From: Undaria pinnatifida
Lineage: Eukaryota; Sar; Phaeophyceae; Laminariales; Alariaceae
Assembly: GCA_012845835.1 (NCBI GenBank)
Contig: JABAKD010000010.1
Location: 9,676,311-9,740,310, forward strand
DNA length: 64,000 nt
Reading direction: 5' to 3'
The position numbers and the translations under genes are program-made. This document shows, piece by piece, positions 9,501 through 62,841 of the stretch. Position 1 is the first letter of the stretch. Every line of letters starts with the position of its first letter. The notes under the pieces are model-generated. The model did no database searches. It saw only the letters and a program-made list of their open reading frames with translations, and had not been told where the DNA came from.

Positions 9501-12500
9501 AGTGGTTATCAATAGGAGCCCCAGAACAGAGTTAGTGGATCTTTCGACCGTAGCTCGTAGCACGTATCCTTGATGAGCTCTCAGCCTCGCCAAAAAGCTG
9601 ACTTTCAAGGAAAAAATGAAAGCACAATGCGACGGATAACCAATCCTATGGCCCAGGTATCTGACGAATGGTACGCCCAAAAACACACAAGCAGCACCCT
9701 AACGGATTCGGGCATTTTCCCACTTCAGCAGTCCCGGCACAATAGTCAAGAGATCTCGCCAAAAAGTCCTCGTAACCTTATCGTGTGGGTTGTTGTTGTT
9801 ACTGTTGTTGCTGCTGTTGATGCTGATAATCTCACATCAACAGCCCCTGTGGGTGGCTTTAGAGGGTGTCCTACACTATTGTGTGGCTTCAGAGGGAGGG
9901 TAAAAACTGCCGAGAACGTCACTGACGCTTGCAGCATCGGCCACACCAAGCAGCCCCGAGTCACCGGGATAGGGTGGCGCACTCAAAAACTGCAACACGA
10001 GGAGCTGCGCCGCACGCGCGCCACATGGTGATTTCCTCTACTGCTCGAGGCCCTTCCTATTACGGGGGTATGATACAATAATCACAACCGAATATGGCTC
10101 GCAAAAAAAAGCAGGGTTTTTCACGGACCAGAATCCGACCAGCGGGTCGGTTAAGGAGGTTTTCAAGTTCCCGCGGGTGGAGTCGGGTCGGGTCAGGAGG
10201 TGTTCGAAATGTCACGGGTCGGGTCAGGAGGTATTCAAGTTCCCGCGGGTGGAGTCGGGTCGGGTCAGGAGGTGTTCGAAATGTCACGGGTCGGGCCAGG
10301 AGGTATTCAAGTTCCCGCGGGTGGAGTCGGGTCGGGTCAGGAGGTGTTCGAAATGTCACGGGTCGGGTCGGGTCGTCGGGTCAGGAGGTTTTCAAGTTCC
10401 CGCGGGTGGAGTCGGGTCGGGTCGGGTCGGGTCGGGTCGGGTCGGGTCGGGTCGGGTCGGGTCGGGTCGGGTCGGGTCGGGTCGGGTGGGGTGCGGTTGG
10501 GTGGGGTCGGGCCGGGTCGGGTCAGGAAGTTTTCAAGTATGACACGTCGGGCCGTGTCACCCTGACCCGATTCGACCCGGGATTATCTAATCCGTGAAAA
10601 GCTCTAAAAAAAAACATGCGTATTATTGCAGGTTTTCGTGCTTATTGTGCATTCTAAGTACGTATAATACTACATATGTATCTATATATGTATGGTGAGG
10701 AGCTTGACCACATCGCAGTCGTCGGCTGTTTTGATCGCTATAAACGGCTCCCAAGAATGTCTTGAATCCAGCCCGTGCTCACGAAAAGGCACAATAAATA
10801 CCGTCTGCAGGCGAACGATAGCGTCGCTCAAGAGTCGGCAAATATTCAAAAGGGGGGCTTACATCACAGGAGGTCTATCATCGTCAGGTATTCACGTGGG
10901 TCTGACTGGTATTAACAACATCTTCCACTGCCCAATGATGATGTCGTTGAATGTTCTGCATTTCCCTTGCACAGCGTCCCCCTTCTGCAAAACTGATTGA
11001 TTACCACCCTCCCCCCTCAAACATCTAACAACGAAATACGTCGGTACGATACGTGATGGCACAGCAGTTCGTTTTTTTATTCGGCTCGGCGGGGGCGACG
11101 ATGATGGCGGTATTGGCACCAGAAACAGTGCGCAGGCGATGGACCGTGCTGCATTGCGGCAATGCTCCTACTCCTTCGGTAGGGTCCTAACATGGTTAGT
11201 GCCCCCGATGCTGGTTGGATGGCGTCATCTGCCGTGTCGCCATTAATGTTTTTTTGCTGTCTGTTGTTCTTTGGTTTTCATTTTTGTCGTGCCGTCCTGT
11301 TCCCTTGATTATCTCCAATCGCTTCTTCCTTTTGTCTTTCTTGTTCGTTTCTTTCTTTCGTTTTCACTGCAATTAGTCTGGTGTGCTGGTGTGCTTTGCT
11401 GGCTTGTATGATAGGACCATCGGGTTTGTTTTTTGGGTGGGTGCTCATTGCGGCTAGCAAAGCATTGCATGGCCAAATCACCCTGCTGTATTTGCAACGT
11501 GTAGCTCTGCCTCGTAGATTGTTCTCAAAGAGCTCGTCTCCCTGTGATGCATCGACGCGGACACTGGCTATGCTGGATGTAGATGGGTGGAAATATCAGT
11601 TGAGCGTGAAAAACACACATAGTATTGGATAGTAGTGGGTACGATCGGAACAAGCGACACGCATCATTGTCATATGGGACATGGAATAATAATGCCTATA
11701 ACATCACATGTATTACGACACCACACTACTTAAAAACGAAAGCCAGTCGGGGTCCCAGGAATATAGCCAGTTCCACGACCTATACTAATGTGCGAACACA
11801 AAAAAGAGACACGCGTCACGTGTAGGCTGAGCCTCCGTGGGCTTTAGCCTAAAAAGCCTAAAAGAGCCTTCCTTTGTTTTTCGGAGCCCAAAAACAAGGG
11901 CTTCATGAAGGGCCTGAAACGAAGGCGATTGGAGCCTTTTTTCGGGGACGGCGCCTATTTCCCGTCTATTTTTACCCCCGGAGCCAACTTCTAATAATTT
12001 AGCCTTTTTGAATCTGCCCCTCCGTAAAATCGCCAATAAATAAGATGTGAACCCTGTTCGAACAAGTGACACACAACAATCGCTACACTATACTAAGAGC
12101 GCGACATACATAGCTACACGGGCTACGGCCGAAAACAACGCCCGCGTTAAAATCAATAGGGTGCATACCACAGAGTATACTGGGGGTACTTTGCACGGTA
12201 AATACCCTACCTAAGTTTTCGGTCAATACCGGTACCCGACTAATCGGTGAGTTCGAAAATAACTCAATAGCAGTACCCGACACTTCGGTAAGTCCGGTAC
12301 GAACTCAATACCGCTACCTATCACTTCGGTAGATTCGGTACGACATCAATACCGGCACCTGGCACTTCGGTAAACTCGGTATAACCTCAATACCGGTATC
12401 CGATACTTCGGTAAGTCCGGTACGACTTCAATACCGGTACCTGGTAAATCGGGAAGTTCGGTGCAAACTCAAAACCGGTACCGGACACTTCGGTAAGTTC

Positions 12501-15500
12501 GGTACCTCATTACCGATACTCGACACTACGGTAAAATCGGTACGCCCACCAAAAGTACCCTCCGTACCGGTATATTCTGCAGAACATACCCTTGACACGA
12601 TGTGTATATGGCATATATGTGGTGTAATCTGGAGTCTCTGCACCTCAACCCCGTCCCACTGTGTTAAAAGTCTGCCAACACCTCATGGAACAAGCAGCAA
12701 TTTACAAAAAAACACCTCAACCACGTCCTACTGTAAAATGCATGTCAACACCTTGCGGGATAACCCAAGGATGCGCATTCCTTCATTTTGGTCGACACCG
12801 CATTGAGTTCTTGAGGCCCAGACACGTGGGGTTATGCTAAAATCAAGTAAAAAAAGCGAAAAAAAATGCCTTTGTTCTGTAAACCCGTACAGAAATACAC
12901 CCCACTGGTTTGTCCTCCACTCCGGACCTTTTAATGAGTGTGACTCCGTTTTCTCTTGTTCTCGAGTACCCCTCAACAAGCAATAAGCTTGTCTGAAATA
13001 AAAAAAAGAGTCCTCACCGTGCGTCCCGAGTACAAGGTGTGCACGTCGTCGGGGCGAGTGGCGTTCGAGGCCACCGAGTTCTCGGCGAGGCACAAGAGGG
13101 CGTGGAGACTGCGGTGCCGGGTTCGCCCAGATCGCCCGACCTCGGCGGTGGCATTTTGTGCCTTTACAGCTGCCTGAAACGCCGCCAGTACGGCTGCAGC
13201 ACCTCCCATGTCCCGTTTCATGCCAATCTGCCACGAGGGCAAGCGCAAGGAAGCGAGGAAGCGAGGAAGCGATTAGATTTTTTTTTTTTCGGCTTGTAAT
13301 CAAAAATCCTAAATGAAGAGTTGAACCAAAGTCACTCATTGATTCATATAAAAAACCTTCGTGTCTTGCTTCACCTCTAGACATAAGAGCAAATCCTTCA
13401 GCCAAGAAAGGGTTTTTCGTTTCAAAGTTTTTTGAGTAAGCGAGAAAGCGGCCTAGCGAGGCGAGTAGTAGGCTAGCAAGCGGAGTGGGCGAGCAAGCGA
13501 GTAACCGAAGCGGGTAAGTCAGCAAGCAAGCGCGATCAAAGAGACACCTGGACTTCCGCTGGTCGGCGAGAGACTTAGCAAGCGAGCCATCAAGCCACCA
13601 GGCCATCAAGCTAGCACGCTAGCAAGGCTGCGCAAGCAAGGATGTAAAACCAAGGTTGTGCAAGCAATCAGCCACGCCGGGAGAGGAGTCGCAAAAGTAT
13701 AGGGCCACTATCAGCACAAACGCCATCAATAGAAAGACACTTTGTGCCCGCAGTTTTCTGATGGGTCATTTTTTAGGTTGGAATTCTTGATTGGTGAGAA
13801 ATCCTTGGTCGGCATGTGTCGCCAGCGAATGCGGAAAGGTTGGGGGACGAACCTTATGTAGTGCTGCCATCAGGCGACGTAAAACCTAGGGTGTCGAGAA
13901 TCTTCCACGTCGCAAGCGCTTCAGGAGCAGCACTGGCTGGCAATAATAGCAGCAGCAGAGCTCAAGGTAGAACCACCATGTATTTTGGTCGTACAGTCAG
14001 AGGTTGGCGTCGACGAAGAAACGTGCAGGTTCCCCTCGTGAGGGTTGGAGATGGGCAAGAAGCAAAACACAGCACTGTTCATAAAACACACCAGGTACTA
14101 ATGCGATATTTATATGAGTACGAGCATAGAAATGTGCATCAGCTACGTACTTGTATACGTACTCGGACTCGTTCCATAAAACATGGAAAGCACATGTTCC
14201 TGAAAAAAATAGAAAGATGGGTCTACTATTAATAGAACCAACCATGCCAGTCTTGGTCTTGATCGACAGCCCGCCGGTGTCGTACACAATCCCCTTGCCC
14301 ACAAAGCACACCGACCCCGGCTGCCGCTGCCCCCGCCGTTGCCCCGTTAGCCTTCCCGAGATACCGCCGCCACCACCGCCGCAGACGCCGTCGCCGTCAC
14401 CGGTGCCCATACTCGAATCGATGGTTCGCTTCCGCTCCCTTTCCTCTTTCTCGTCGACGACGTGACTGAGCACAACCAGCGCCGGGGGCTCCACGGCCGC
14501 CTTCCCGACCCCGTACAACCCCCCGAAACCTTGCCTCGCCAGGTCGTCGCCGCGTATGACCTTCATCGTCACCCCAACCCCCAGGCCACGCGCCACCGCC
14601 ATCGCCTCCTCTATAAAAGCGGACGTGTGTAAGACGTTGGGGGGGGTGTCGACTAGCCTAGCAGCGAGCTGGATGCCCTCGGCCGCCGCGGCTACGTCCA
14701 TCCGAACCGCGGGCCAGCTGTCGTGGGGAACCCTGAGGTATACCGTCACATTTCTAGACGGCAAGGGAGCGGGGGAGGATGGGGCGCCGGCCGGCCGCTT
14801 CCTGCTCGCACTGCTGTACAAGGGGAACGCTCGCGCAACAGCGCTTTTCGTCAACGGGAAAAGGGCGAGGGCGGAAAGGGAGGGAGGGGGTAAAATCATT
14901 GTCATGCATGGTCGCAGTCTGTCTGACCATAGACTCTAGCATCCCTGTATAATGCCGGAAAACGCCGGGGCAGAGCATGTCGGATTTTTACTGACACCAG
15001 ACAGACATTGCACCAAGCGCGAAGCGCCGTCAAGTGTTCAGCGAACCGTATACATAGGAAGGGCAGAAGGGGGGCTGGGGCACTGCTACTGTGTACGCGC
15101 ACGAGCGTATATGCTGCTGTACGGAAAAGACAGCCAACCACCGTGGGGAGGGTAGGTGGTTCGCGAATTTTGCCCGATATTGATGTTTGACGAAAATAAT
15201 TTGAAGAAAAATTATCCACCCGTCGCATTTTCCACCTGTTCGTTAGAGGCACGACCAAATTAGTCGGTGCTCAGGTTTGATGTTTGGCTATACCTGGTAT
15301 ATGGGACAGCAGTAAGAGCTCGCCAACAAGAAACGGATAATTGAATAAGGCTTGAAACCTTGCGGTGACACCAACCTTGGGCACCCTTGAGCACAGGCTT
15401 TCCGTAACTGGTAGCATCTAATGGAGCGCTCGCCGCTGAGGGCCATTTCTTAATCCAAATTTCTTATCATCCCGAAAAAAGTGAGTCTGACGTTCTTAAG

Positions 15501-17704
15501 TTATTTCTTATTCTTGGCCGCACACTTCTGTCCCGGGCAGCATTATTTTTTACTTTCAACATATGTATCTTGTTTAATATTTTATATCTTATGTTACCAA
15601 GTTTTTTCTCTTAAGATTTATTTCGTTGCGCGCAGAGTTCAGCTCAGGCGTGTAACTTGTGATATTACAAAAATATTTTTCAAGTATGATTTTGTGGATC
15701 ACTAAAAACCAGCTGAAAAAAACTGATTAGTGATTTATCACACACGCTGCTGTTTCTGGGATACTTACTGCTGCTGCTGTTGCTGCCAGGATTGGGACGA
15801 AAAGCTCCGGCTGCACGAACGATCGCGGTCTCCTCGTCGAAACGGCGGCGTTCGCTCGCTCACTCACTAGCTGTCACTCATCGGCGAAACAAGGTGCAGC
15901 CCACGCAGGGGCGTTCAGGGACGCTTCGGGCACGCATGCCGCATCGCGAGGCACGGCGCCGCGCGGCACTTCATCGCAGCAATAAAACGACCGGGTCATT
16001 TTCATACCATGCGAACGACAGCTTCTTCCATGCTTCCGTAGACAATACGGCGGTACGGGGTATGTACAATAATACCTCGGTACATAGGCTACCGAACGAG
16101 AACAGAAGCTGTACGTTTAAACCTGGTGTGCGGTACCGGTACTATTTGCCGGGCAAAGTTCGTGTAGAATTCCTGGATCACAACGGCTGCTAGTCTGAAT
16201 ACCAGGTACTGCCTTGTTGATAATCTCCATGTCTTAACATTATGTAAGTACTTCGAAGTATGTATCTACCGTAAAAAAATGTACCACGTACCAGGTACCG
16301 TATAATACTGTACCGGAGATACGGTACCCTCATATAGCGGTAGTAAGCTCATGTTACGAGTATATGTACAGTACAATGAATGTTAGGCTACGATATCATA
16401 TCATACGTACGTCCTCGTGCAAGCAGTGGGTTGGTAACCCTCTCGTGCTATCTCACCAGCCTGCGGCGAAGGCGTACGAAGGGTGCTCAAGGCACATGAT
16501 GATGGACACGTTCCCGCTCCCGCTGATGCTTCGCACACAGTCGGCGATAGCGTGGGGTTGGGGGGGGGAGTTGTGGCGGCTGCATTCCTCGGGGAGGGCG
16601 CACAGGGCAACCCGGCGAGGCTGCCCCCTCACCGCCGGCGACTGGAGGCAGGGCAAGAAAGTCTCCGCCGTGCAGGGCCTCGCGCCGGAGGGGACAAGGC
16701 CGGAGATTATGTCTTGGAGGAGGAGGGCATGGCAGGGGTCCTCGCAGGCTAGCGGAGCCGTGACGCCGGCCAGAACCTAATTGGTTGGGTGGGGTTGGGG
16801 GGGGGGGGGGGGGGTCGAGGGAGAGAAGGAGGCGGGGGGGGGGGGAAGAGGAAGGGGGGGAGGAGAAGGAGTAGGAGGGGGATAGGGGGTGGGAGGGGCG
16901 GGAGGATGGGGGGGGCAGGTTATCGATTATGGGGGCATAGCGCATGCTGCACCAACACTGGTGGTGCACTGCTGTCGATCACGTAAGTTTCTCTCTAGGG
17001 CATGCCAAGGCTTCCCCCCGGAAGCTCGCGAGCTGTGTACCACAAGCGATACCTCGTACGTCGCACCAGTTACAACGTAACATTACGCTGTTGTAATGTT
17101 GTAATATCGGTAACACCAGGTACCCTTGGGTACCCTCGGGTAAATGACACCTGCACGTGTTACACACGAACGGATGAGAGAGCTCGAGAGCACGAGACCC
17201 CATTCATTGCCCGCTGAAAGAACAAATTATTTCGATTTTCCAGCTGTTATTTTTCCCCCTGGTACCAAGTACATAGAGCAGTGCGACGTACAGTTTAGTA
17301 GCTTGTGTTCGGTCGCGAGCAAAAATAGATATCGATGGTACTAACAGGACTCGCATCATATCAGGCGCAAGCTGAAAAAAAAGGAAGTGCTTGACACACG
17401 GAATTGCGGCAAGATAACTGACCGCGCAGCGTGACCGCCAGGCAGCTGACACGGCCTAGGAGGAAAGAGCAAGGCAGGCAATCATGGATCGGTGACAGCT
17501 TTCGTCTTCGGTCTGCTAGAGACGATGTTAGTGGGTAGGCGAACGAGGTACGCGACAGAAAAGTGATTGATGCCCGGCGATCCGCCCGCACGCCCAACCC
17601 GCAAACAGAACCAACACCGAACTCACCGCCTTGCGGTCGATAAGCATCACGTTTGGAGGTCGCGGCGAGGGCAACTCGTCTACGTGGTGGAAGGAGATCG
17701 GCAT
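1..17704 (-). CDS. NPEPL1: NPEPL1-type leucyl aminopeptidase (peptidase M17), spliced, 3' end outside window
   Basis: Metal-dependent aminopeptidase that removes N-terminal residues from peptides, presumably cytosolic (no signal peptide seen). Six exons join in frame into about 547 residues, against roughly 520 for the human protein, whose order of motifs I recognise. Metal and catalytic motifs are complete: [14 protein letters not shown] (about residues 315-328), MKRDMGG (336-342) and NNTDAEGRL (407-415). The C-terminal run [14 protein letters not shown] breaks at a donor, and the expected final stretch (ATGFGVALL in relatives) is not found between 594 and 1, so the last exon lies beyond the window. 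Introns 1-5 are about 850, 1,613, 1,015, 4,522 and 7,467 bases; introns 4 and 5 are filled with repeats and a LINE. Start chosen at the ATG of MPISFHHV; the frame is open further upstream, so an earlier start is possible. Family known; exon joins are my inference from splice sites and phase. Confidence 0.9.
595..765 (-). CDS. NPEPL1: Aminopeptidase exon 6
   Basis: After acceptor tttgcag reads [30 protein letters not shown] and [15 protein letters not shown], 171 bases, phase 2 to 2, donor [19 protein letters not shown] and HIDMA are typical of the C-terminal catalytic domain. The following exon is not in the window. Confidence 0.95.
766..1200. other. Acceptor side of aminopeptidase intron 5
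   Basis: Contains the C-rich acceptor tract (plus-strand GGGCGGGCGGG, 780-800) and a G-run at 1,181-1,198. A short ATAGTGCCGGT/TATAGCG motif recurs at 860, 900 and 975. No gene seen. Confidence 0.4.
1281..5960 (-). mobile_element. LINE (EEP endonuclease + reverse transcriptase), near full length, decayed, C-tailed
   Basis: Minus-strand non-LTR retrotransposon in intron 5. In element order: N-terminal piece with [15 protein letters not shown] (about 5,820); endonuclease fragments with [15 protein letters not shown] (about 5,400) and [14 protein letters not shown] (about 5,030); linker with [12 protein letters not shown] (about 4,110); RT fragments [14 protein letters not shown] (about 3,450), [16 protein letters not shown] (about 3,290), [10 protein letters not shown] (about 2,650) and [15 protein letters not shown] (about 2,430); C-terminal CPCG zinc knuckle (about 1,630). 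The frame shifts repeatedly and several stops occur, so it is inactive. The 3' end reads into a poly-C tail (plus-strand G-run 1,255-1,280). A SINE interrupts it at 3,676-4,018. The 5' limit is approximate. Clade not assigned. Confidence 0.9.
3676..4018 (-). mobile_element. SINE-like insertion with (CAAAAA)n tail
   Basis: Interrupts the LINE between codons that otherwise join (KMVS / SRSKG). On the minus strand it starts at a GT repeat, has a body of about 250 bases, and ends in an A-rich (CAAAAA)n tail; a TTAGT target duplication flanks it. A diverged relative lies at about 11,250-11,625 in the same orientation, sharing the GGACACTGG and TGCTGGATGT segments. Confidence 0.7.
6008..6228. repeat. 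Imperfect inverted repeat, 65-70-base arms
   Basis: Arm 1 (6,008-6,076) and the reverse complement of arm 2 (6,160-6,228) share CTCACAT, AAAATGGCC, AATGGAAAAC and GACGATT at about 80% identity, separated by about 85 bases with T- and C-runs. Could be a small foldback element or the two ends of a larger deleted element. It lies just upstream of the LINE 5' end. Confidence 0.6.
6516..6815. repeat. CAG / CAGCAGCCAGCAG microsatellite
   Basis: Some 300 bases of interrupted CAG, with longest pure CAGCAGC(C)AG runs at 6,700-6,790. Open in several frames on both strands, encoding Ala, Ser, Gln or Cys/Leu runs. It lies inside aminopeptidase intron 5, so there is no reason to think it is translated. 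Confidence 0.85.
6816..8232. other. Remainder of intron 5 proximal to exon 5
   Basis: No exon seen. GGCGTCGTCAAAAT occurs twice (about 7,000 and 7,050). A coding-like 12-codon motif occurs at 7,966-8,023 on the plus strand (see findings). Confidence 0.4.
7964..8023 (+). repeat. Recurrent LTAD motif, copy 1
   Basis: Reads [18 protein letters not shown] in one frame. Similar segments occur at 21,661-21,719 (-), 48,070-48,122 (-) and 63,800-63,860 (+). All start GC(T/A)TGCAAAGAT and keep CTCAC(A/G)GCT. Confidence 0.6.
8233..8495 (-). CDS. NPEPL1: Aminopeptidase exon 5 (active-site NTDAEGR)
   Basis: Begins [17 protein letters not shown], the M17 signature holding the Asp/Glu metal ligands and the catalytic Arg, continues [12 protein letters not shown] and [15 protein letters not shown], and ends EEF plus AG of a split codon at donor gtaagg. 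263 bases, phase 0 to 2. The acceptor (ggccgacag) lies about 45 bases downstream of a C-run that is the tail of a truncated LINE. Confidence 0.97.
8539..8690 (-). mobile_element. 5'-truncated LINE copy (3' end with C-tail)
   Basis: Some 110 bases of the 3' end of the 1.3-5.9 kb LINE: minus strand encodes [16 protein letters not shown] then LEKDGWLMV, followed by a C-run of about 28 (plus-strand G, 8,539-8,568). Lies in aminopeptidase intron 4, just upstream of exon 5. Confidence 0.8.
8700..10120. other. Repeat-poor part of aminopeptidase intron 4
   Basis: No exon recognised. Has a G-run at 8,884-8,909 and a GTT/GCT repeat at 9,790-9,830. Open frames up to 153 codons (9,570-10,031, plus) have no recognisable motif. 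Confidence 0.4.
10140..10590. repeat. 72-bp minisatellite followed by (GGGTC)n array
   Basis: About 3.5 copies of a 72-bp unit (10,145-10,400; unit contains GGAGGT.TTCAAGTTCCCGCG and GTTCGAAATGTCACGG), then about 20 GGGTC units to about 10,525. Since 72 is divisible by three, all frames stay open; the 24-residue repeats seen in translation are a by-product. The G3-TC spacing is a G-quadruplex pattern on the plus strand. Confidence 0.9.
10600..11240. other. Intronic, no feature recognised
   Basis: Part of aminopeptidase intron 4. No exon or repeat recognised apart from short AT-rich stretches near 10,660-10,690. Confidence 0.3.
11250..11625 (-). mobile_element. Diverged SINE-like element, relative of 3,676-4,018
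   Basis: Shares the GGACACTGG/TGCTGGATGT head and the T-rich plus-strand end (A-rich tail on minus) with the element nested in the LINE. Borders approximate. Confidence 0.5.
12150..12575. repeat. 41-bp minisatellite rich in ACCGGTACC
   Basis: About nine degenerate copies of a 41-bp unit of the form ACTTCGGTAAGTCCGGTACG then CTCAATACCGGTACCTGGC, clearest at 12,270-12,480. In aminopeptidase intron 4. Several units end in near-palindromic ACCGGTACC. Confidence 0.85.
13018..13227 (-). CDS. NPEPL1: Aminopeptidase exon 4
   Basis: Starts after acceptor gtggcag and reads [17 protein letters not shown] to [11 protein letters not shown] to [15 protein letters not shown], 70 codons, phase 0 to 0, donor [16 protein letters not shown] carries a zinc-ligand Asp. 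An ~11-residue Arg-rich insert follows QNATAEVG. Confidence 0.95.
13228..14242. other. Aminopeptidase intron 3
   Basis: Contains an AAGCGAGG/AGCAAGCGAG-rich stretch at 13,240-13,620. No coding signal in the gene's frame. Confidence 0.5.
14243..14843 (-). CDS. NPEPL1: Aminopeptidase exon 3 (first metal/catalytic motif)
   Basis: One base completes the Cys codon, followed by 200 codons: [37 protein letters not shown], then [15 protein letters not shown] with its Lys/Asp metal ligands and catalytic Lys. Ends KTKTGM at donor GTTGGT. A 45-50-residue Gly/Arg/Ser-rich insert (EKEERERKR to QRQPGS) sits between LSH and VCFVGKG and is absent from the human protein; it is probably a surface loop. Confidence 0.95.
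14844..16456. other. Aminopeptidase intron 2
   Basis: Holds TACC(A/T)GGTA sites at 15,291, 16,200 and 16,289. The 137-codon plus-strand frame at 15,780-16,193 has no recognisable motif and lies wholly in the intron. GTAC-rich sequence at 16,060-16,370. Confidence 0.5.
16457..16776 (-). CDS. NPEPL1: Aminopeptidase exon 2
   Basis: Begins after an acceptor (ccaattag) preceded by a long C-rich tract, which is the poly-G run at 16,798-16,860 on the plus strand. Encodes [14 protein letters not shown] through [12 protein letters not shown] to [10 protein letters not shown] and ends in TG of a split Cys codon (donor gtgaga). The SRHNSP and [12 protein letters not shown] (across the splice) segments match the N-terminal domain of NPEPL1-type enzymes. 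320 bases, phase 0 to 2. Confidence 0.85.
17627..17704 (-). CDS. NPEPL1: Aminopeptidase exon 1 (start codon)
   Basis: Encodes 26 residues from [12 protein letters not shown] to NVMLIDRKA and ends at a strong donor (GCG/GTGAGT), phase 0. It joins exon 2 to read [13 protein letters not shown]. The upstream frame is open for at least 40 codons, so the true start could lie higher. Confidence 0.65.
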
Positions 17705-18734
17705 GGCTCCGTCCTCTTTGCGTCCTCTCGCTTGAGCGACGAGAGTTCCGTCGTTGCTGGAGAGTTCGTGCTGCTGCCGCTGCTGGTGTATCCTGTTCGA
17801 AGCTTTTAGACTTGTGTAGAAATCGAAGGCTTTTTTTAAAAGGGAAGTAGGCCCTGAAAGACCCCTGGCACTGATTGTTTATTTTATTTATTTTATTTTC
17901 TTCTCAAACCCCATGCCAACCGGTTGTGCCGGAATCGTTGCGTATACTGGTTAGCTATAATTTATACCTGGTACCTGGTAGCTAGCTGTCGACAGAGGGC
18001 TGCTAACTGAGGCCTGAGGGAGACATGTTAGAATATTGGAGAACATATATATGGCTGAGAAGATAGCTGGTTGGAGTTTGAGGTAAAGTTATTGTAGATC
18101 ACCTGCCAGTCTTACTTTTACGTGTGTATCATATCACCACGGTTGCACAGAAGGAAAAAAAATGATGTCTCTCAAGACTCTTTTTTTAGACCGACTGCTG
18201 CTGCTGCTGCTGCTGTGTTTTGAGACCCCCCTGGTCTGCTCCTGTTCCATCATGAGTTAAATCGACACACGACGCGTATGAAAATACGTGGAAGTGTGGT
18301 GAGCTAAGGCTTTATTTTTCCCCATCCGCCGGAGGATAAAAAAAAAAAAAAAAAATCCTGTTCCATCATCATATTAAAATACCCGTCGCTTGATTCAAAA
18401 CAAAAAATACAAAAAAAGTACTCCAGCTCGTAGAACCTGACAGCTAGCTGCTGCTTGCTGTGCTGCTGTGTCAAACGTCTCATGTATGTATGTGCGCTAT
18501 GCACACAGACAAAAAAAAGCACATACACACGCCGACGCTGCGCGAGAGCGCCAAGCACTATTTTTTCGTTGATGAACCCCTTTTTTGAATGCACGCGCAG
18601 CAGCCGCTACTATTATTAATAATACTGCTGCTGTTGTTACAGTAACAATACTACACACTCGTGCACACTACTATTAATACTACCACTACTACTCTACTAC
18701 TACTAATAATAATACTGCTACTACTACTATACTA
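17705..18734. other. Region upstream of aminopeptidase
   Basis: Expected to hold the 5' UTR and promoter, but no defined element can be named. Tandem TACCTGGTACCTGGTA at 17,965-17,980, an A-run near 18,338 and an ACT/AAT microsatellite from 18,600. Confidence 0.4.
18600..18734. repeat. ACT/AAT trinucleotide repeat
   Basis: Interrupted CTACTACTAATAATACTG sequence adjoining the miniature LTR element at 18,735. Confidence 0.75.
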
Positions 18735-34730: not shown

Positions 34731-34731
34731 A

Positions 34732-35652: not shown

Positions 35653-35654
35653 TA

Positions 35655-43428: not shown

Positions 43429-43521
43429 CCTATATATAGGTCCGCCATGGGACTACTTCTTCATCTTCTTTGTGTGGCAGTGTTAGTTTCCTCCCGGTCG
43501 GGTTTTGGAGATATGATTGCT

Positions 43522-50700: not shown

Positions 50701-53700
50701 AAAATATGTACCAAGTTGCATACGTACCAGGTACGAGGCATGATACGACCTGTTCCCTTCGGAACTGCACCCACTTTTTCCGAGAGTACGAGGCATGATA
50801 CGACCTGTTCCCTTCGGAACTGCACCCACTTTTTCCGAGAGCAATGCACTTGGAATTCTTATGGAATATTTTTCGAAGTTGCAAAAGAAGGGTAAGAGCG
50901 GGGCTGAAACTCAAGCTAGGGCCCGCCGACGGAACTACACGCCGGTACTCGTACATGCCGTTCAAGAAAAACGCCGCGCTTGCAGGTGCTGATCACAGAT
51001 CAAGGACAGCCTTTTTTCAGGGGCAAAATATTAATAATTAGTACCAGGCAGCACGCAGCAGCTATACACAGCAAGTGTTTTGGTACGATATCACTGTGCT
51101 TTGGTGGGTCGCTTCGGCGAGAAGGCAGTCTTCGGGAGTGCGTGTTGGTGGCTCGAACAGCGTTCATTCGGGGAGAGGAGAGCTTGCTTATGCCGTCAAC
51201 AGGGACACGGGAAGCTACAGGAACAGCCATTTACATGCACCACGTCACACAACAGAAGAGGATCGGTAGAGAGTACACATGCATGGTAGCGGGCTGGTCC
51301 ACAAGATCTGTGGTCCAAGCGTCGACGAGAACTGCTCTGTCGAAGACTTCGTACCGTATGAACCACCCGACATCTCGAAATGAACGGTGCTCACCATGCT
51401 GCTGGAGGAAATTTCCGACATCGGCTGTGTGTTTTTATTCCCGAATACACCCCGAGCGTGCGTAGGAGACTCGAATCATCAATCAATTTATTGGCTGTAT
51501 CGCCTCCTTACACGTGGCAGGGGTCTGCAACCCTTCGAGCGTTAACTTGCATCTACGGGCTAGGGACAAGTTACTTCCGAGTCAGCGCTGGCTTTTTCTT
51601 TGAAGCGGTAAAAGGGGTAAATCGGTAGCTACTGCCTACCAGGCTTTACAACAACCAAAACTTGTACTCTTAGTCCGTTCAGAAACTACACCCTCGTTTT
51701 GGGGTTCACAATGTCGGCACTAGTGCAGAAACATGCTTACAGTTCTGAAAGGGCTAACGGCCCACTCAGAAGGACGAGATTGCCCCCATCACCTTGAGGA
51801 TCATGTAGAAACAGGTGTTCAGGCAGGAGGCCAGCAGCAGCTGCTGGCGAGTGCGCAGGTAGACCAGGCCGTCCTTGCTGGCGCCCAGGTCAGCCGTCAC
51901 GTTTGACACCAGCGGCTGCACCGACTCCGTCAGGGTCTGCAACTGCACGCGGACCTCTCCCAGGAGGGCGGGAAGCTCCGGCGCCTCGGAAAGAACGAGC
52001 TCCAGCTTGTCTCTGCGGCTCAGTTTGGAAGTGTCTCTCTTCACCACCGACGTTTCCACCTGCCGGGTTTTCCAATCAAGGAGGCATCAGGACCGAGTGG
52101 TGGAGGGGAGAAGGTTAGCTATTTACGGTACATCCCAAGACATCCAGACATTACGGTGGGGAGGGGGGGGGGGGGGTCGATAGATGGAGTTTTGGAGGCG
52201 GTGGCAATGGCGGCGGGGATAGTGGCAGCGACAACTGCTGCGGAGACGAAAACACGAAGGAAAAAAACAGCAACGCAGGATAAACCATCGCCGCGGTAAC
52301 AAGCCGACACAGTGCTCTCGCGCAGCGGTGAATCGCAGATGCGCTCTAAATCGGATACAGGCGACAGCAACTTTCAACCGTTGATAGCTGCCACACGAGG
52401 ACACGGTGCGCCTCAAAATACGAAAGAACGCAGGAGAGCGCGCGGAGGAGTGCGAAACGCGAAAAGCGAACGAACGAAAACAAACAAATAAAAACGTTAC
52501 CTTTCCAGCCCCCCCAAGAGCGATCTGTTCGAGATCGCTCTTCATCGCTGACAAAGCTGCTCCATGAGCGGTTTTACCCCCCGCCACCTTGTTCTTCCGT
52601 TTCTCCTTCCCCTTCCGCGATCGCCCTCCCTTGGCACCCTTGTTTCCCTCATCCTCCCCACCCTCCTCCTCCTCTTCCTCATCTTCCTCCTCCTCCTCCT
52701 CCCCCTCTTCCTCCTCTTCTCCGTAGTCTGCGGCGTCGAGTCCCTTGTAGCTCGCCCTCTGCAGCTCGAGGGCGGCCTCTTCCTCGGCTTCCGCGTCCTC
52801 GAACTCTTGCCCAATCTCAAGGTCGGCGGTGTCCGCGTTGTAGTAGGAAGACCTGGCCAGGTAAACACGCACGTACCAACGCGCACACGCGTGCACGCAC
52901 GCACGCGAGAAACATAAGGGCAAAAACGGTGTTCGGTTCGCTCTGCCACGCAAAGCACATTATGAAACCAAAGCACGCAAAACACCCCAGGTACGTAAAT
53001 GACACGAAAACACCCAAAGCACGTGAAAACGCAAAGAACACAGAGCGAGCTAAAAACGCCAAACGCCAAACACCCAAACCACGCAAAGCGGTAGGTCGAT
53101 TTGGCGATCGATTACCCCCACCCCCTCACACCCGCCTGCTGAGATTGAACGGAACATACGCAACCATGCCGTGTGCAGCAAACTCAGTAGATACGTGAAA
53201 TGTGGGTTGCGCTTGCCGCCGGGGCGGCTTCGCGTCGCCGCTTGCGTACGTACCACTATATCCGAAAATATAGGAGTCGTCCGTACAATAATAGCAATAC
53301 GAAAGGTGCTTAAATTTCCGAACAGAGTGGGACGTCGTAGGAAAAGTACTGTCCCCGCTCGGTTGGTATCACGGCCCGCACCTGTTCTTGCCCCAGCCCG
53401 CGGCGAACTTGCCCTTCCCTTCCCCCTCTTCGTCGCTGTCGCCTTCGTCCGAGGAAGCTTCCATCGCAGCCCGCCGCACGTGCTCCGGCAGCTACCGAGG
53501 TGGGCAAGGCAATGTGGCGGGCGGCGAGGCGGACAGAGCAACAGGGTCGGACAAAAACAAACATAACCCCCCTGGAACACAAACTGGTATTCATACACCC
53601 CTGCTCAATCATACTAGTCAAACTCAATTATTGATTTGGCCTAAACGCCCCTGGACTATGAAACCACCTAAAAACGTGAAAATATACCAATATCTGCCCA

Positions 53701-56194
53701 AAAGCCGAGAGGAGACGACGCAAAGCGACGGATACTCGTGGGTTTGACAACCTCATATGGGTAAGGCATACATCAACGGCGGTCAGGCGGGCGACAAGGT
53801 GGGGGAAGATACCACTACCGCCTTCGCCGCGTGAGACGCCCGTCGGCAACAAACGAGGGCGTAGGGTACGTCGTAAGCGGTGGTGAAAAAAACGCACGGT
53901 AAAAAACAAACAGCAACGCTGCGGCGTCGCGACATCTCGTTTCGGGTTGTACGCAGGGGGCAATTTCGTGAGGGCATCGTGGAATAAACAGCCTGACAGG
54001 GAGCCCACTCTGCTCCAGAGTCTGCCCGACAAGTCAGCACGTAACATTATTAAGGATACATGGACAGCCAGACATCTGCTTGGCGCCCTACCTACTGCGT
54101 ACGACTAGAACTTGGTGCAACAAATCGCAAGGTTAACGTTTATATATCTCGGGCCTTTTTCCTCCTATGCGTACTACCGGTAGCCCGTAAGCGGGCGAGG
54201 GCCTTGACGCAGGTCGCATCACGTCGCAGCAGCAGAAGCGGCAGAACCACCAATAGGGACGACAGCAGCATTAACATCAGCAACAGCGCTTCAATGTCTG
54301 CATCAACATCAGCTGCAGCGACAGCTAGACCTACAGCTACACATCAACATCGTCAGCAACCTCTACAGCAACATCAACATCATCCACAACCGCTACGGCT
54401 GTGGCAGCAGCGCCCTCAGCAAAACAAACCTCTGCAGCAACATCGACATCATCAACAACCGCTACAGCTGTAGCAGCAGCGCCCTCAGCAACACAAACCT
54501 CGGGCAAGTCGGAGACGTCGGAGTCGTCGTCTTCCTCCGAGCTGTTGTCTTCTTCGTCGTCGTCGTCGTCGTTGCTGTCGCCGCCGACTCCTTGGAGGTC
54601 CATCACGCCCTCCTCTTGATCGGACTCGTCCTAATAATATTACAATACATTAAAACGTAAACACGTCAAATCAAGCCGTATAGTTAGAGTTACGCGTCAA
54701 AAAGTACATATACAGCGGTAGCTGGCGGCACGGAAATCGTTCGAGATGGGATGTACAGCTTCTGCACGATGCAGATGCGTCAGCTGGCGTGATAGCGCGG
54801 CGTAAACCTACGGCACGTGATTTATGTTGAAGCGCTCGGGCAAGCATTTCTGCACCCGCAAACCGCAACATCAGCAGTCATCTGGATGGTTGATAGGCGT
54901 GTTCATGAAGATAGAGCAGATTGGACTATTTGCAACAGCAGGGGTCTCCGCAGTAAAGGCCGTGTGGTGTGCCCGAGCAACATGACCACGTTATAGAGGA
55001 AAGCCGCCGTATTCACTCCAGGTTATGAGTGCAATGCCCCAGTCGCGCCAAGCCATTTTGACCGCCTTATATCGGGAAACCGCCTTATATAGGGATACCA
55101 CCGTATTGACGGACCCCTATTGTAACGCGAGTGAGGTGCCTAACTGCCTCTTAGGGTATCCCTTTAGACGTCTGCTGTAAGGCAGCGTCGTAAAAACATT
55201 ACCCCCTTTGGTAGGGCTTTGGGGCTTCAGAGGGAAAACGGGAAACAAAAACGACGATTACAGCATTGGGCACACGAAACAGCCCAACTCACGCGTGTCC
55301 TAACTGCGACCGAAAGAGCTGTAGCACGCTCGCAGCAGCACGATGTTTGGTTTGTGCTGCTGCATCCCATTCCTCATGTGTGCGATCATATCGCACTCGT
55401 CGTTTTGGTTTGATACAGAAAAAAAATAAGAGGGTTGTATTGAAAGGGTAAAAGCACCGAGGACAACGCGCCAACCGACTCTAACTCTCTAACTGAAAGA
55501 ACGAAGAAGCGTCGGCGTCGGCGTCGGCGGCGTCGGCGGCGTCGATCGTTTGGCGTGGATGGTTGAGTTTCGCGATTAAAACGGTCTAACGGCTGATGCT
55601 GATCGCCCGCAGCCGATACGCCGGCAAGCAACAAACCACATATTACAACACGAGCATCATCCCAGGTGTTTAATTATGTACCAATACCGGGTAACAAGAA
55701 CAATACCAAACATTTAAAAACGAAACCCTGTCTGACTCCATCACGAGCTGGAGTCTATGCACTGCAGGTAGCACCCACGCTTGCGCTCTACGAGCACTCT
55801 CGGAGGGCCAAAATAGGGATACTTTCACACACGAGAGAGCACACGAGTTCATGGCGTACCGAGTCGTCGGAGTCGCTGTCCCCTCCGCCGAAGTCGATCT
55901 TGTCTTTCTGCATGTGGAACTGGTCGACGTTGGTGTAGAGGTGCTCATTGTTTGGGTTACCTGGCACACATTGCACAGCCGTAGACGAAAGGAAGGGGGC
56001 GTACAGCACATCATTCCAGGTACCTGGTACACGTCAATTTTGATACACGTTATACGTAGAACTACTTACAAATATCGTTTTTCTGAGCCGCCTCCACCTG
56101 TTCCTGTCACGCACTCACGTTGACATATTCTCGTTTCCAGACTGCTGAACGGGCTCAAACGCCTGAAGCAGAGCTCCTCGGAGACTTCTCTCAT
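47605..56194 (-). CDS. UTP3: UTP3/Sas10 small-subunit processome protein, spliced
   Basis: Nucleolar component of the SSU processome needed for early 18S rRNA processing. Exons 55,860-55,960; 54,499-54,630; 53,382-53,491; 52,501-52,852; 51,793-52,059; 49,295-50,542 and 47,605-47,700 join in phase, and a tentative first exon (56,119-56,194) gives 793 codons. Order: acidic N-terminus, WGKN-R-SSYYNADTADLEIGQ hallmark (about residues 137-157), very acidic Glu run, Sas10/C1D domain (PELPALLGEVRVQL to FYMILK then HPVVRRLLSLRALL), a long Gly/Asp/Glu-rich linker, and the Sas10 C-terminus (ASYTIIKNRGLTPHK, RNPRSKKREAFRKA, RRKGQVRDI, YGGESTGIK). Much longer than human UTP3 (about 480), mainly through the linker. 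The family is identified with high confidence; only the first exon is doubtful. Confidence 0.93.
47701..49294. other. UTP3 intron 7
   Basis: Holds an LTAD motif copy, a TACCAGGTA site at 48,175 and an AAC run. Minus-strand frames at 48,155-48,495 have no domain. Confidence 0.5.
48070..48122 (-). repeat. Recurrent LTAD motif, copy 3
   Basis: In UTP3 intron 7, antisense of the plus strand: GCTTGCAAAGATGAATTTC, reading LAKMNFNQLLDITAEG. An (AAC)n run follows at 47,948-47,965. Confidence 0.55.
49295..50542 (-). CDS. UTP3: UTP3 exon 7 (rest of C1D domain, linker, Sas10 C-terminal domain)
   Basis: Starts AKGEPAKDHPVVRRLL after acceptor gttttcag; 416 codons. Contains the end of the C1D domain, coiled basic AAKKKARRELKKRAL, a Gly/Asp/Glu-rich disordered stretch, then RVAGALEAELEAERAARG and the C-terminal signature to RRKGQ. 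Donor CAG/GTGAGA. Confidence 0.97.
50543..51792. other. UTP3 intron 6
   Basis: Contains a 55-bp tandem duplication at 50,732-50,841 (unit TACGAGGCATGATACGACC...) and a TACCAGGTA site at 50,725. The plus-strand frame at 50,980-51,465 (161 codons) has no recognisable motif. Confidence 0.5.
50732..50841. repeat. Perfect 55-bp tandem duplication
   Basis: Two identical 55-base units, starting at the right end of a TACCAGGTA site. Recent, because no differences are visible. Confidence 0.95.
51793..52059 (-). CDS. UTP3: UTP3 exon 6 (Sas10/C1D domain)
   Basis: VETSVVKRDTSKLSRRDKLE, SEAPELPALLGEVRVQ, YLRTRQQLLLASCLN and FYMILK; 89 codons, phase 0 to 0. This is the first half of the Sas10/C1D helical domain and ends at the conserved FY.ILK. 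Confidence 0.97.
52501..52852 (-). CDS. UTP3: UTP3 exon 5
   Basis: RSSYYNADTADLEIGQEF, then EEEAALELQRA, a long Glu run, a basic GRSRKGKEKRKNK stretch, and SDLEQIALGGAGK at donor GTAACG. 352 bases, phase 2 to 0. YY.AD.ADLEIG after WGK is diagnostic of Sas10. Confidence 0.95.
53382..53491 (-). CDS. UTP3: UTP3 exon 4
   Basis: LPEHVRRAAMEASSDEGDSD to KFAAGWGKN plus AG at donor gtgcgg. Two acceptors keep frame: ggtag (53,491) and, three codons in, gccggag (53,482). The latter would avoid a repeated LPE after exon 3. Confidence 0.8.
54499..54630 (-). CDS. UTP3: UTP3 exon 3 (acidic)
   Basis: Acceptor attattag, then DESDQEEGVMDLQGVGG and an Asp/Glu/Ser run to SDLPE; donor GTTTGT. 44 codons, phase 0 to 0. 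EEVMDL-type motifs precede the acidic tract in relatives. Confidence 0.8.
55860..55960 (-). CDS. UTP3: UTP3 exon 2
   Basis: Acceptor gtgccag, then NPNNEHLYTNVDQFHMQKDK and an acidic tail DSDSDDS ending at donor GTACGC. VDQFH corresponds to the VD(D/E)FH motif in the family's N-terminus. 101 bases, enters with two bases, exits phase 0. Confidence 0.8.
56119..56194 (-). CDS. UTP3: Candidate UTP3 exon 1
   Basis: ATG then MREVSEELCFRRLSPF to RICQ plus one base at a strong donor (CAAC/GTGAGT). The one-base overhang fits the next exon and keeps the whole frame. The peptide does not resemble known N-termini, which are usually basic, so the true exon may lie elsewhere. Confidence 0.35.
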
Positions 56195-56826: not shown

Positions 56827-57650
56827 ATAACAAAAATTCACTCCCAGCCCAACTAAGCTCAGCTATAGCTCAGCAGCGCGCGCCGCAGCGCCGTGCAGAG
56901 CCGTGCTGCGCTGTGCTTTCTTTCGAACACATAGTACCAGGTACCAAGTATCATGCGAAGTACCAGGTACCAAGTACCGGTACGTACGTGTGTAATCGTC
57001 TTTTGGCTTTGTTCATTGATTGCCGTCCCTCCGTGCTCATGATTTCTTCCCCGCGCAAATTACACCCGTTCTGCCGAACGTGACATCGCTGACAAGCACA
57101 CAGCGCAGCACAGCGGGGCAATCAGCTCTGCACAAGTAGCTCTTGGTATCGCTACGTAGTGACACCATATCATGGGCCTCTTCTTTGTGTCCCTTTAACA
57201 TCTAGTTGTATTCTTGCTTGCGCGAGCTGTCGCGGCCGGCGTCAGCCGCCCGCGGAGCGGAGCCCTTGTAGCTCCGCCTTTGTACATTGTATCATACAAC
57301 AGGCTATCGGCAGCAGTCTCCAAGCAGCACCGACAGTTCGAGTGCAATAGTTATACTCACACACAACATTCAGTACGTGTGTAAGCAAACGCATAATAAG
57401 CCACCGGCAGAAGTCCATGAGAGAGCATGGCATTGCTTTGCTGTCTTGCACACATACAAGCCCGCGGTAAATTTTTATGTATGGCTCTATACCGGTATAT
57501 TCAAGCGTGGGCTGTTCTCGAGTGTTCCTGAATATAGCTTGCAATGGCCGCCAGAACGCAGGACAGAGGCAACTCGCACGACAACGAGTACGAGGAGGAT
57601 ACAGAGATGCATAGCCAATTCATCGAGCTTATTACACATACCACCCCCCC
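56827..57650. other. Non-coding
   Basis: GTACC-rich stretch with two TACCAGGTA sites (56,935; 56,961). No gene recognised; a UTP3 5' exon could lie here but none is evident. Confidence 0.35.
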
Positions 57651-58560: not shown

Positions 58561-60500
58561 AGTGAGAGGTGTTTCTGGTGTTCAACAGCAGCAGCAGCTA
58601 TTGATTGAAACCCTGACAAGTCTATATCGATTAAAACTTGTGTTAATACCAGGTATTATCGTAAATCTGTTGTTTTGAAACAAAAAGCAAAAAGTAGGTC
58701 AAGGTACATATGTATATGTAAAAATATTATCTTCGTTTTGTTTTTACTCGCTGCTCTCCGGCGGCCGAGTGTTTCTTCTCGCACTTTCGGCCGCGGGGCA
58801 AGCTAGCCTGCCATGGGTACATTATGAAGCATGTCTGGATCTCGGCCGAGCTCCGTGGCGGCGTTCGGCGCGTTAAACGTCGCTTAGCTGGCCCTATTTG
58901 GCAAGGGATTGCGTTCCGCCTCCCTGAGACGAGCAGGTCACTTGGAACACCCCAAATTGTTTTTCACTTTTTGATATTTCGATTAGCTTTTACAATTTTT
59001 TGTTCTTCGTTGTTTTGTTCGTGAACAAATGGCCCGCTACTCAACTAACCTTAGCAGCAGCGCAGCAGCAGCAATCGTCCGGGCTAAATTAACCTCAGCA
59101 GCAGCAGCACAACAGCAGCAGTAGCAGCAAAATACAGCAATAGTAGCAGCATTACACATGTGGATCGGATTAGTATGAGGTTTGGGGGCGCGCCGCCCTG
59201 GGCCCTTTCGGCCCCGGATCTCGACTAGGGCGCAGACAAGGGTAAACCGGCCTGCGCTCTCCCGCCGGGCGGGCGGCCGCTCGTCAAGGCAGGAGCGAAA
59301 GCGTCTGTAGGCGTGGTGGACCCGGTGTGTTTATTTTTCCCTTGCGGGGTAACTAGACGTGTCCGAATGTAAGGACCGTTTTTACTTCAACAAAAAGATA
59401 TATCCAGGTATTGTATTTCCGGACAGAGCGGATGCCAGCAGGAGGGGGCTGGGAGGTAGAGGCCGGGAGCAGCCGGGTGTTGGAACGAGCGCCATAGGGC
59501 ACGGTATCTCTCCGCGCGGGAGACGGGGCTCACAGGGACATAGAGCAGGGAAAGCTTGGAAGATGGCACCGAGCGCGGCGAGGGTGGCAGGTATCGCGAG
59601 CGCAGCATGAACCGAGTCTCGACCAGGCCAATTTTTTTGGGGGGGCAGAGTGGAACCATTGGTAGGGTTCAAGGATATAACACCTTATTAGCGACAGCCG
59701 AACTCGGGTATATACACGGTGCTGCTGCAGTCAAAATCGGGTACAGTTCTATTTCAGCGTTCGCCACGCGCCCTGAACGCCATCTGATTGGCTGGGTGGA
59801 TCGGTTTTAGGTCTGTTGCTATTATCGTACACACGTATGATACACACATACTTTTCTGACCACATGCTTCAAGTAGTGGCGGCTTCGGACGGGAATGCTA
59901 TCGATCTAGCTCTACTTTCTACGGGGATAAACGAGGAGTATATCAAGGTTTCGGTTCACCTCAAACCCAGAACCAAAGCGTTGAATATTACCTCCAACTC
60001 ATGCAAAATCCTACCACGTACGCCACACGTACCAAACTTGTTGCTGCCAACCAATTAATAATTGTACATTCAAGAGCGACTGACATTGGCTGGTCAACCC
60101 TTTCCATTACCACCAAGTGCAAACACACGTGACGTACTAAATAGCAACGAACACTATTCCACGTACGGTAGGTACGCAGCATTCCCTGATCACTGATAAT
60201 TCGTTTGCGCGTACACAAGTGCAACGTGCACCCACCGCTATCACACTGTTCCCGTTCAGTACTACTAGTACTACTCTTTCTTTGGAGCAATGCACTAGCT
60301 CATGCCACATGTTTCCTCTAAGAGCAGTGGGGTTTATCTATGTGAGTACCAGTAACACCATTATAGGTGGAACATTATTGATACGTGTGTTACCGGTGTC
60401 TCCCTTTTCGCCTTGCGACGCCCCCGGGAATTCACGTTACCCGCATCCCGAACGGGAACCTTGTATTGCTATATATCATCCAAGGTGTTCATTCAAACAA
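58561..60500. other. Non-coding or unrecognised
   Basis: CAG/AGC-rich at 59,050-59,150, GC-rich stretch at 59,180-59,300. Plus-strand frame 59,359-59,610 (Gly/Arg-rich) and others lack motifs. Confidence 0.3.
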
Positions 60501-62060
60501 TAGTCTGGGGTATACGGTGCGTATAGGTATGTCTTAAGCAGTACGAGGGTATAAATTTACAAGCAGTAGGTATCGATCGAAACCCTTGCAAATATATTTG
60601 TTAAATTGTCAGTAGGTATCGATCGATACCGTTGAGAACCTATTAAATTGGGCAATAGGCATCGATCGACCCCCTGGCAAACCTATTACATTGATCAATA
60701 GTTATCGATCGATACCATCGCACACCTGTCGCTTTAACTAATAGGTATTGATTGGTGGCAATAAAAAGGTATTGTTCGAACGATAGCCTGTTGGGAGTCA
60801 TTTTCAAATTATGTTCGTGCCCAAGATACCTATCGATATACACCTTCGCAGGCATATCGGTCGCACAATAGGATGTTGTGGCCACTGCCCTAACCCTATT
60901 GTTGCTTACAATACCAATCGATAGACCCCAAAGCCGAGCTATCGTGACCCTCGATAGGTATCGATCCTCATAGTTGCCGACCTATTGTTGGCCCAATAGC
61001 CTATTCGATAGGGCATTATCCAGGGTATAAGAAATAACTGAACGGCACACAAACAGGTCGCTCTAAACACTGCAGGCTTAAGCTTCGCATCGAACACACA
61101 CACGTAGTAATCACCACCTTGTTGTTGAGAACATCCACCCACAGCTTCTTAGGGCACAACAAGGACAGACAGTGCCGTTTTGGGGATTCTCCGCTGGGCT
61201 GGGGGAGCGTGCGGCGTGGATGATGAATGGCGAACAAGAGTTTATTGTACCAAGACTAGTTGGGCTCTCTTAGAACGCCTTCGCTCTCCAACACTGAAAC
61301 AATAAATTTGCGAAAGGTCTACGTACCGATACCTATCATGCGAAACCATGGAATGGTGAAAGGTCTGTCAATACCTACTGTATCGTCCGAAACCATAGAA
61401 TGATGAAATGTCTACCGATACTTATTTTTCGAAACAATAGGTTTGGTAAAAAGTATATCGATACCTATCACACAAACCCATAGGTCCCGTCTCTCAGCGC
61501 CAATATTCTATCGCCTAACCAGTATCGTCCTGAAAATGTCTATCGATACCTACTTGTTTTATCAATATGTTCAGATAAATCAGTACACCCTGGACAATAG
61601 TAGTCAATAGGCAATCGATAGGATCCTATTCAAACAGGAGGCCTATTGTTGCCCGCGATAGGTATCGATAGGTACTTTTCGTATCCTATTGCGGTCGACA
61701 ATGGGTATCGATTGGCATCTTCAATGATCTACTGTTCGGCCAATAGCCTATTGTATATATTTACCTGAACATATTGGCCAAACAAGTAGGTATCGGTAGA
61801 CATTTCCAGGGCAGTACTGTTCGGGCAACAGGATATTGACAATGAGAGACGGAACCTATGGGGTTTGTCCGATAGGTATCGATAGCTGTTTCACGAAACA
61901 TGTTGTTTCTACAGATAGGATCGATAGACGTTCCACCATTCTATTGGTTCGGCCAATAGGTATCGATAGACGTTCCACCATTATGTTGATTCGGGCAATA
62001 GGTATCGATAGACATTCCACCATTCTATTGGTTCGGGCAATAGGCAGACATACAGCAGTC
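60500..62060. repeat. ATCGATCGAT palindromic repeat, block 2
   Basis: The clearest tandem part is 61,915-62,050: 42-bp units CAATAGGTATCGATAGAC...CCACCATT(C/A)TATTG. Translates as repeats of IGIDRRSTI, which is a by-product of a period divisible by three. Confidence 0.85.
60945..61170 (-). repeat. Inverted duplication, arm 1
   Basis: The minus strand reads LSLLCPKKLWVDVLNNK, then GCGACCTGTTTG(T/C)GTGCCGTTC and CCCTATCGAATAGGCTATTG, matching 62,995-63,190 on the plus strand. Confidence 0.75.
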
Positions 62061-62841
62061 CATTATACTCTATCTATCACCATACCGGTAACAAAAAAGT
62101 ATCACATTCACAACTGCTGTCCACCAAGTACATTTTTTTGTATGTTCCGATGGAGTTGGAAAATCCTAAAAAATGAAAGAGATCGTTGTGCGAGAGCACA
62201 CCAAAATATGGCGTTGTCCACTCGACTCGAGCACCGACAGCAACGCAGCAACAAACAAGCTCCCCATTCCGGAACGGAAGCGGGGGCAGACGTGGGCTTG
62301 CCTCGCGAGCACCGGGTGTCTTAACAACTGCAGTATGCTTCGGATCCAATCGGAGTGCACCACGGGGGCCACGCAACACCTGGTGGATGCCCATGGATGG
62401 CATCCAGAGCACTACTACTACTGTAGCAGCTGCGGGCACCGACCGAGAGGTGAGTCTCGCGCCGATGTTCTTTGGGTATGGGTTGTGTGTGCATCATAAT
62501 GAATTTAAAAAAGATACCGCGCTCATACTCGCAAAGGCGAAAGCGATTTCGTGCTTGGTTTGTAGTAGTTTACTTCCCCTGACTCTGGAAATTGTACCAG
62601 GTATATTATGTTCGTATCCGTATGCACAACTTTGAATGCCAGGTAATAAAAGTGGGGTGTCGCGTTTGTTTTTGGCGTGCTCCCTTCTGTGTCAGCCAGC
62701 ATATGTGCCCCACGGGCACAGCATCATGTGCCATGCATGTACATGCAGAAGAGTGCTAGGATTGTCCTGCCTTGCCTTGCCTTGCCTGCTGAATCGGCAC
62801 GGCCACCAAAAAAAGAGCGCTGTGCTGTTGAATAAATGCAG

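Follow-up and report, generated by a model that had tools for sequence, protein, structure and literature searches.

TACC(A/T)GGTA, an over-represented TA-bounded palindrome in a 64-kb window of the Undaria pinnatifida genome, as a probable footprint of transposon excision

Why does a single nine-letter palindrome, TACC(A/T)GGTA (hereafter TACCWGGTA), recur along a short stretch of an algal genome, and does it arise by insertion at TA dinucleotides? The stretch analysed here, referred to as the window, comprises 64,000 bases and contains exactly 18 copies of the word, a density of about one per 3.6 kb. A preliminary description had placed 17 of these copies; every one of its coordinates was exact, and an additional site was found at 2723. 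The window carries a minus-strand gene for an M17 aminopeptidase, whose coding stretches lie near 14.9, 13.2 and 8.4 kb (the first assigned by Pfam, the other two by motif matches), and a Sas10-like coding stretch at 49.2–50.6 kb, also on the minus strand, for which codon scores predict upstream exons at ~51.8–54.6 kb. LINE copies, SINE-like copies and many tandem arrays are also present, whereas neither tRNA genes nor Rfam families at the gathering score were found in the window. For the aminopeptidase and Sas10-like coding stretches that were placed, the earlier remark that no site falls within an identified exon is upheld.

The excess of TACCWGGTA in the window is real. One hundred dinucleotide shuffles yielded a mean of 0.40 copies per shuffle (sd 0.68, maximum 3), and Markov models of order 2, 3 and 4 predict 0.60, 0.68 and 1.01 copies respectively; the excess over chance claimed earlier therefore holds within the window against shuffled controls (18 versus 0.40). 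The word ranks first among TA-N5-TA words (18, runner-up 5) and among nine-letter palindromes (18, runner-up 7), and it still heads all 9-mers in enrichment once copies within 200 bp of each other are merged (15 versus 0.67). The base at the centre of the core is A in 12 cases, T in 6, G in 1 and C in none. The word TACCATGGTA was seen once in the window, and TACCGGTA is enriched too (10 versus 0.98). The 25 words that differ from the 9-mer by one mismatch occupy 36 sites, or 31 after merging within 200 bp, versus 14.2 expected, which is what decaying scars would give. Some of these one-mismatch sites fall inside repeats.

The origin of the word was addressed by comparing repeat copies that hold it with copies that do not. 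Each TA-N5-TA word was aligned locally against the rest of the window with and without seven bases (the core and one TA); a word was considered alignable when a second copy scored at least 50, and better empty or better full when the two scores differed by at least 8. A second copy was alignable for 5 of the 18 nine-mers and for 98 of the 237 control TA-N5-TA words, the other 13 nine-mers being without a copy. Three of the five nine-mers (26729, 34286 and 45732) aligned better empty, versus 1 of the 98 controls, 76 of which aligned better full (3/5 versus 1/98, Fisher p = 2e-4, the control words being common to repeat families and not fully independent). These three sites are the ones for which paired copies had already been proposed to show an insertion, and each pair was upheld. 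At 34286–34294, in a 55-bp tandem unit, TACCAGGTA represents a clean insertion of 7 bp, the seven bases being missing from the three other copies to which the unit was compared. At 26729–26737, TACCAGGTA lies in a LINE tail whose 28.8-kb copy lacks the word (empty 78 versus full 67), and at 45732–45740 it lies in the 5' part of a SINE-like repeat and aligns better empty with the 56.8-kb copy (84.5 versus 74.5); because the flanks of these two sites have diverged, their exact breakpoints are less sure. By contrast, TACCTGGTA at 12438–12446, located in a 41-bp minisatellite within a predicted aminopeptidase intron, aligned better full (88 versus 73) and is not an insertion. The fifth alignable site, TACCTGGTA at 21548–21556, scored 62 full and 57 empty, a difference below 8; it marks the exact break of homology to a 32-kb copy, with ~243 bp extra at the 21548 copy. 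These data support insertion at TA with duplication of the TA. As three of the five testable sites align better empty and 12438 aligns better full, insertion is the usual but not the sole origin among them, and the earlier proposal that TACCWGGTA represents a gain of CCWGGTA at TA stands for those three sites and fails at 12438.

The remaining sites are informative through their surroundings. No alignable copy was found in the window for TACCAGGTA at 2723–2731 (the site missed earlier), 16200–16208, 48175–48183, 58647–58655 and 62595–62603, or for TACCTGGTA at 15291–15299. At 50725–50733, possibly within an intron of the Sas10-like gene, TACCAGGTA borders a perfect tandem duplication of 55 bp. 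Of the 18 sites, 6 have beside them a second unit with no more than one mismatch, versus 13 of the 237 control words, some of which sit beside the same six sites. In TACCTGGTACCTGGTA (17965–17980) two units have a TA in common, giving sites 17965 and 17972; TACCAGGTA at 16289–16297 adjoins TACCACG, one mismatch from a second unit; TACCTGGTA at 56021–56029 has CCAGG just before it, again one mismatch from a second unit; and TACCAGGTA at 56935–56943 is followed by CCAAGTA, as is its near-duplicate 26 bp away at 56961–56969. Such adjoining units are expected if footprints make new TA targets.

Tc1/mariner transposons insert into palindromic, A/T-leaning targets. The nine-mers likewise favour a palindromic, A/T-leaning context, W-N-R-TA-Y-N-W: a purine adjoins TA in 31 of 36 flanks versus 348 of 559 other TACC words (p 0.004), and A or T occupies position -3 in 30 of 36 flanks versus 281 of 559 (p 1e-4), counts that include the non-independent pairs 17965/17972 and 56935/56961. 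A palindromic AT repeat is also described as the preferred target of the ZB transposon (PMC7913693). No longer flank is common to the 18 sites, the best ungapped match being 13/20 and located in a local duplication, and the sites are not clustered above random (5 gaps below 1 kb versus 4.2 expected).

One TA could be compared in four copies of a repeat, at 19.5, 24.5, 29 and 33 kb. Two of the copies read GTACGGTTAGC at this position and are empty (the TA is at 19778–19779 in the 19-kb copy, and the 24-kb copy is likewise empty), one reads GTACCTGGAGC and one GTACCTGGTCTGGTACGAATAGC. The scar of the 29-kb copy is CCAGGTA at 29466–29472. The 33-kb copy bears the composite scar TACCAGACCAGGTA at 33426–33439, which reads as a doubled unit minus 2 bp or as both transposon ends joined. 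The two CCTGG scars thus differ between sister copies, with a flank deletion in one and a doubled or two-ended insert in the other. Different CCTGG scars at one TA appear to be the trace of imprecise transposon excision; a deletion that one of the copies suffered afterwards could equally account for the difference. Scars that vary at a single TA, a mark of Tc1/mariner footprints, were found at this one locus only. A similar variety of scars at one site is described for Stowaway MITEs in Triticeae, together with reinsertion beside an older scar and flank deletions (PMC1925063); in Triticeae, relatives show elements in place, whereas here the scars are deduced.

A TA-flanked element is present in the window. 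It is 921 bp long (34732–35652), has 27-bp perfect terminal inverted repeats beginning CCG, and is surrounded by a duplicated TA (34730–34731 and 35653–35654); an empty sister site with like flanks and a single TA lies at 34429–34455. Both a TA target duplication with an empty site and terminal inverted repeats are features of Tc1/mariner elements. The 921-bp element shares a repeat block with the clean scar at 34286, and Pfam gave nothing above cut-off for its 237-aa frame (best E 0.19, unrelated). Together, the element and its empty site indicate past activity, in the window, of an element of broadly this type. A three-base 5' cut of the 921-bp element would leave the scar TACCGTA or TACGGTA; TACSGTA occurs 23 times versus 8.05 expected, two of these being the element's own ends and several being repeat copies. 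A search of the 64-kb window found no TA-flanked element with CCWGG ends, and for this reason we infer the parent element of TACCWGGTA. The TA-targeting transposon with CC...GG ends suggested previously is therefore matched in part, by a CCG...CGG element with an empty site but not by a CCWGG-ended one. Two pairs of sites with similar spacing, 15291/16200 (909 bp) and 56021/56935 (914 bp), were considered as element ends and rejected, the two segments showing no significant similarity (best E 0.089) and their inward flanks only weak similarity. Searches of viral and genome contigs, with LINE and Sas10-like proteins and with motifs, gave one weak LINE match (L001), which lacks the 9-mer; the doubled word occurs in nine contigs (L002–L010) and, within the stretches examined, a further 9-mer occurs only in L003.

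We consider that TACCWGGTA is probably, in the main, the excision footprint of a TA-targeting cut-and-paste family of the Tc1/mariner type. The observations that support this reading are the excess of the word, its W centre, the 7-bp gain at three of five sites, the target context, and the presence of a CC...GG element with an empty site. The two different scars at one TA, the adjoining second units, the surplus of one-mismatch words and of TACSGTA, and the abundance of Mariner-Tc1 copies described for Ectocarpus (PMC12477816) point the same way. So do small inserts at TA: when all 16 dinucleotides were compared, cores of 3–5 bp that align better empty were found at 8 distinct loci for TA versus 9 for the other 15 dinucleotides together, with 45732 outside the repeat copies used. 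The parent would be another family of the same kind as the 921-bp element, with CC(A/T)GG ends, and this family is probably non-autonomous and MITE-like. An element with CC(A/T)... ends would insert at TA, with duplication of the TA; on its leaving, the body of the element would be lost and five bases would remain between the two TAs. The postulated transposase would cut the 5' strand with a five-base stagger, that is, five bases inside the element, and the resulting single-stranded 3' CCAGG overhangs would anneal to one another at every base but the central A:A. Repair of this A:A mismatch would yield CCAGG or CCTGG, so that self-pairing of CCAGG ends followed by repair would explain the palindrome as well as the W centre. 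If this is true, scars by themselves suffice to reveal a transposon family, with roughly one word in every 3.6 kb of the window; excision would have left a neutral record that can be dated, and a five-base scar of fixed length, longer than the usual Tc1/mariner footprint, would point to an unusual cleavage stagger.

Several observations weigh against an excision footprint: no CCWGG-ended element was found in the window despite a word every 3.6 kb, the 237-aa frame of the 921-bp element gave no recognizable transposase, site 12438 arose without insertion, site 21548 favours neither form clearly, and 13 of the 18 sites have no copy. The outcome is unusually uniform, TACCATGGTA occurring once, whereas non-canonical scars are reported to be common for some mariners (PMC3770610). 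The core measures 5 bp, outside the 2–4 bp described for Tc1/mariner footprints (PMC7913693); Stowaway footprints are given as terminal fragments of 1–4 bp (PMC1925063). In filtered gapped self-alignments, TA led only narrowly among the junction repeats of 99 events of any indel length (TA 7, AC 6, CA 5, TT 5). For pooled cores of 2–10 bp, TA (18/668) was not far above GG (21/751) and TC (15/631), the latter two counts being inflated by tandem arrays, which were left unmerged. Literature searches by motif and topic, covering titles and the starts of abstracts, revealed neither a published TACCWGGTA scar nor another 5-bp scar of this type; whole-word matching of the motif gave two papers, each with one ACCWGGT.

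The footprint of Sleeping Beauty is TAC(A/T)GTA, and its W centre results from annealed 3' overhangs. The footprints of Sleeping Beauty and ZB (PMC7913693) resemble TACCWGGTA in being short inserts between duplicated TAs, pseudo-palindromic and with a W centre; they differ in that the core here has five bases and not 2–4, and in that the parent and transposase are here postulated. A likeness in letters, CCAGG beside TA at the 5' end, is found in the Mos1 mariner, for which the 5' terminal-repeat primer contains TACCAGGTGTAC (PMC2642840). Mos1 differs in its other end, which starts with TCAGG in the primer list of the same source, and in its 5' cut, two or three bases inside the element; the flanks examined show nothing Mos1-like after the 9-mers. 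The superfamily proposed here is abundant in another brown alga, Ectocarpus, for which 17 Mariner-Tc1 families with 11,912 copies, mostly non-autonomous, are listed (PMC12477816); a search of that survey's main text for the terms gave neither footprint nor MITE.

Among the alternatives, TACCWGGTA could be a palindrome to which a protein binds (RTACCWGGTAY) and which selection has maintained or promoted, for instance as a regulatory or nuclear-architecture site. We regard this as unlikely. It would fit the perfect palindrome with its extended symmetric context, and the location of 5 of the 18 sites in the ~3.1 kb that precede the start of the aminopeptidase (14905); however, an exact 7-bp insertion into repeats with duplication of TA is not the usual origin of a binding site, several sites lie in LINE, SINE-like and tandem copies, and the spacing, with its 5 short gaps versus 4.2, shows no clustering beyond chance.

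Somewhat more doubtful still is the idea that CCWGGTA itself is an ultra-short mobile or templated unit, inserted repeatedly at TA, sometimes in tandem, with no long element at the site. A transposase-like activity acting on a minimal, short or abortive donor, an equally doubtful proposition, would be the agent. The stacking of units at common TAs, the uniform outcome, the failure to find a CCWGG-ended parent in the window and a best flank match that is only 13/20, ungapped and local, all agree with such a unit. On the other hand, the two different scars at the TA of the four-copy repeat resemble the end-joined remains of something longer, and the window does contain a TA-flanked CC...GG element. 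No enzyme that mobilizes 7 bp is known to us, and CCWGGTA, if mobile, would to our knowledge be the smallest dispersed mobile unit.

Excision footprints of a single family have also to be weighed against a mixed origin, in which several TA-targeting families acted and CCWGG is the commonest convergent end-joining outcome of CC... and ...GG ends. Its probability is as low as that of the ultra-short unit. The CCG ends of the 921-bp element are compatible with it, as are other TA-bounded micro-insertions: TA[CAAG]TA at 32197–32204 and TA[TTAA]TA at 43356–43363, TA[GAC]TA at 45776–45782, in the repeat copy that also holds 45732, and TA[CTG]TA at 61376–61382. In filtered gapped self-alignments, all five indels of 5–7 bases with a junction repeat of at least 2 had TA at the junction (3176, 32196, 34285, 43355 and 45775; this list was read by eye).

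TA-bounded palindromes are enriched as a class, which also suits a mixed origin: observed versus expected counts are 106 versus 51 for 3-bp cores, 62 versus 14.7 for 4-bp cores, and 34 versus 12.7 for 5-bp cores, 18 of the last being TACCWGGTA. Control 4-bp palindromic cores gave 18 versus 16 when bounded by CG and 22 versus 18 when bounded by GC, and words bounded by TA are somewhat in excess whatever their core. However, the class enrichment comes partly from simple repeats, AT-bounded palindromes are also raised at most core lengths, and the uniform W centre and exact length of TACCWGGTA favour one family.

The least probable account is a word bias, in which the 9-mer is often made by point mutation in a genome rich in TACC/GGTA minisatellites: site 12438 belongs to an array of this type and needs no insertion to align, and TACCGGTA shares in the enrichment, but the order-4 Markov model expects only 1.0 copies, the one-mismatch variants reach 36 sites over 25 words versus 18 for one word, and three sites behave as insertions, so that word bias is disfavoured and explains 12438, not the whole.

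Besides the 9-mer, the palindrome TACCWGGTA, other palindromic words with TA at either edge were enriched over the whole window: TAG(A/T)CTA occurred 19 times against 4.3 expected, TATTAATA 12 times against 1.7 and TAGSCTA 12 times against 3.2, repeats contributing part of these counts. These three words are possibly scars left by other families. At the 9-mer site at 21548, this repeat copy carries a segment of ~243 bp (21557-21801) that is absent from the 32-kb copy, and the left edge of this segment coincides exactly with the 9-mer; the difference may stem from a gain in this copy or from a loss in the other.

Inside the 921-bp TA-flanked element (34732-35652) lie tandem repeats of the TATCACACCCCC type; a Pfam search with its 237-aa frame gave no match above the cut-off. 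A further stretch, at 42983-44071, has inverted terminal repeats (CCCCTTTAGAGCCCC) separated by ~1.08 kb and adjoined at either end by TTAA. It looks like a non-autonomous element of the piggyBac type, with TTAA as the target.

At 23978-24486, tRNA-like pieces (with a GGACTCGAACCC box) are present in both direct and inverted copies and are accompanied by a tandem duplication of 121 bp; ARAGORN identified no tRNA gene. Tandem repeats also abound in a big inverted block at 60560-63940, built on ATCGATACCTATTG / CAATAGGTATCGAT units of ~42-43 bp, and at 10143-10523 units of 72 bp are followed by ~24 copies of CGGGT.
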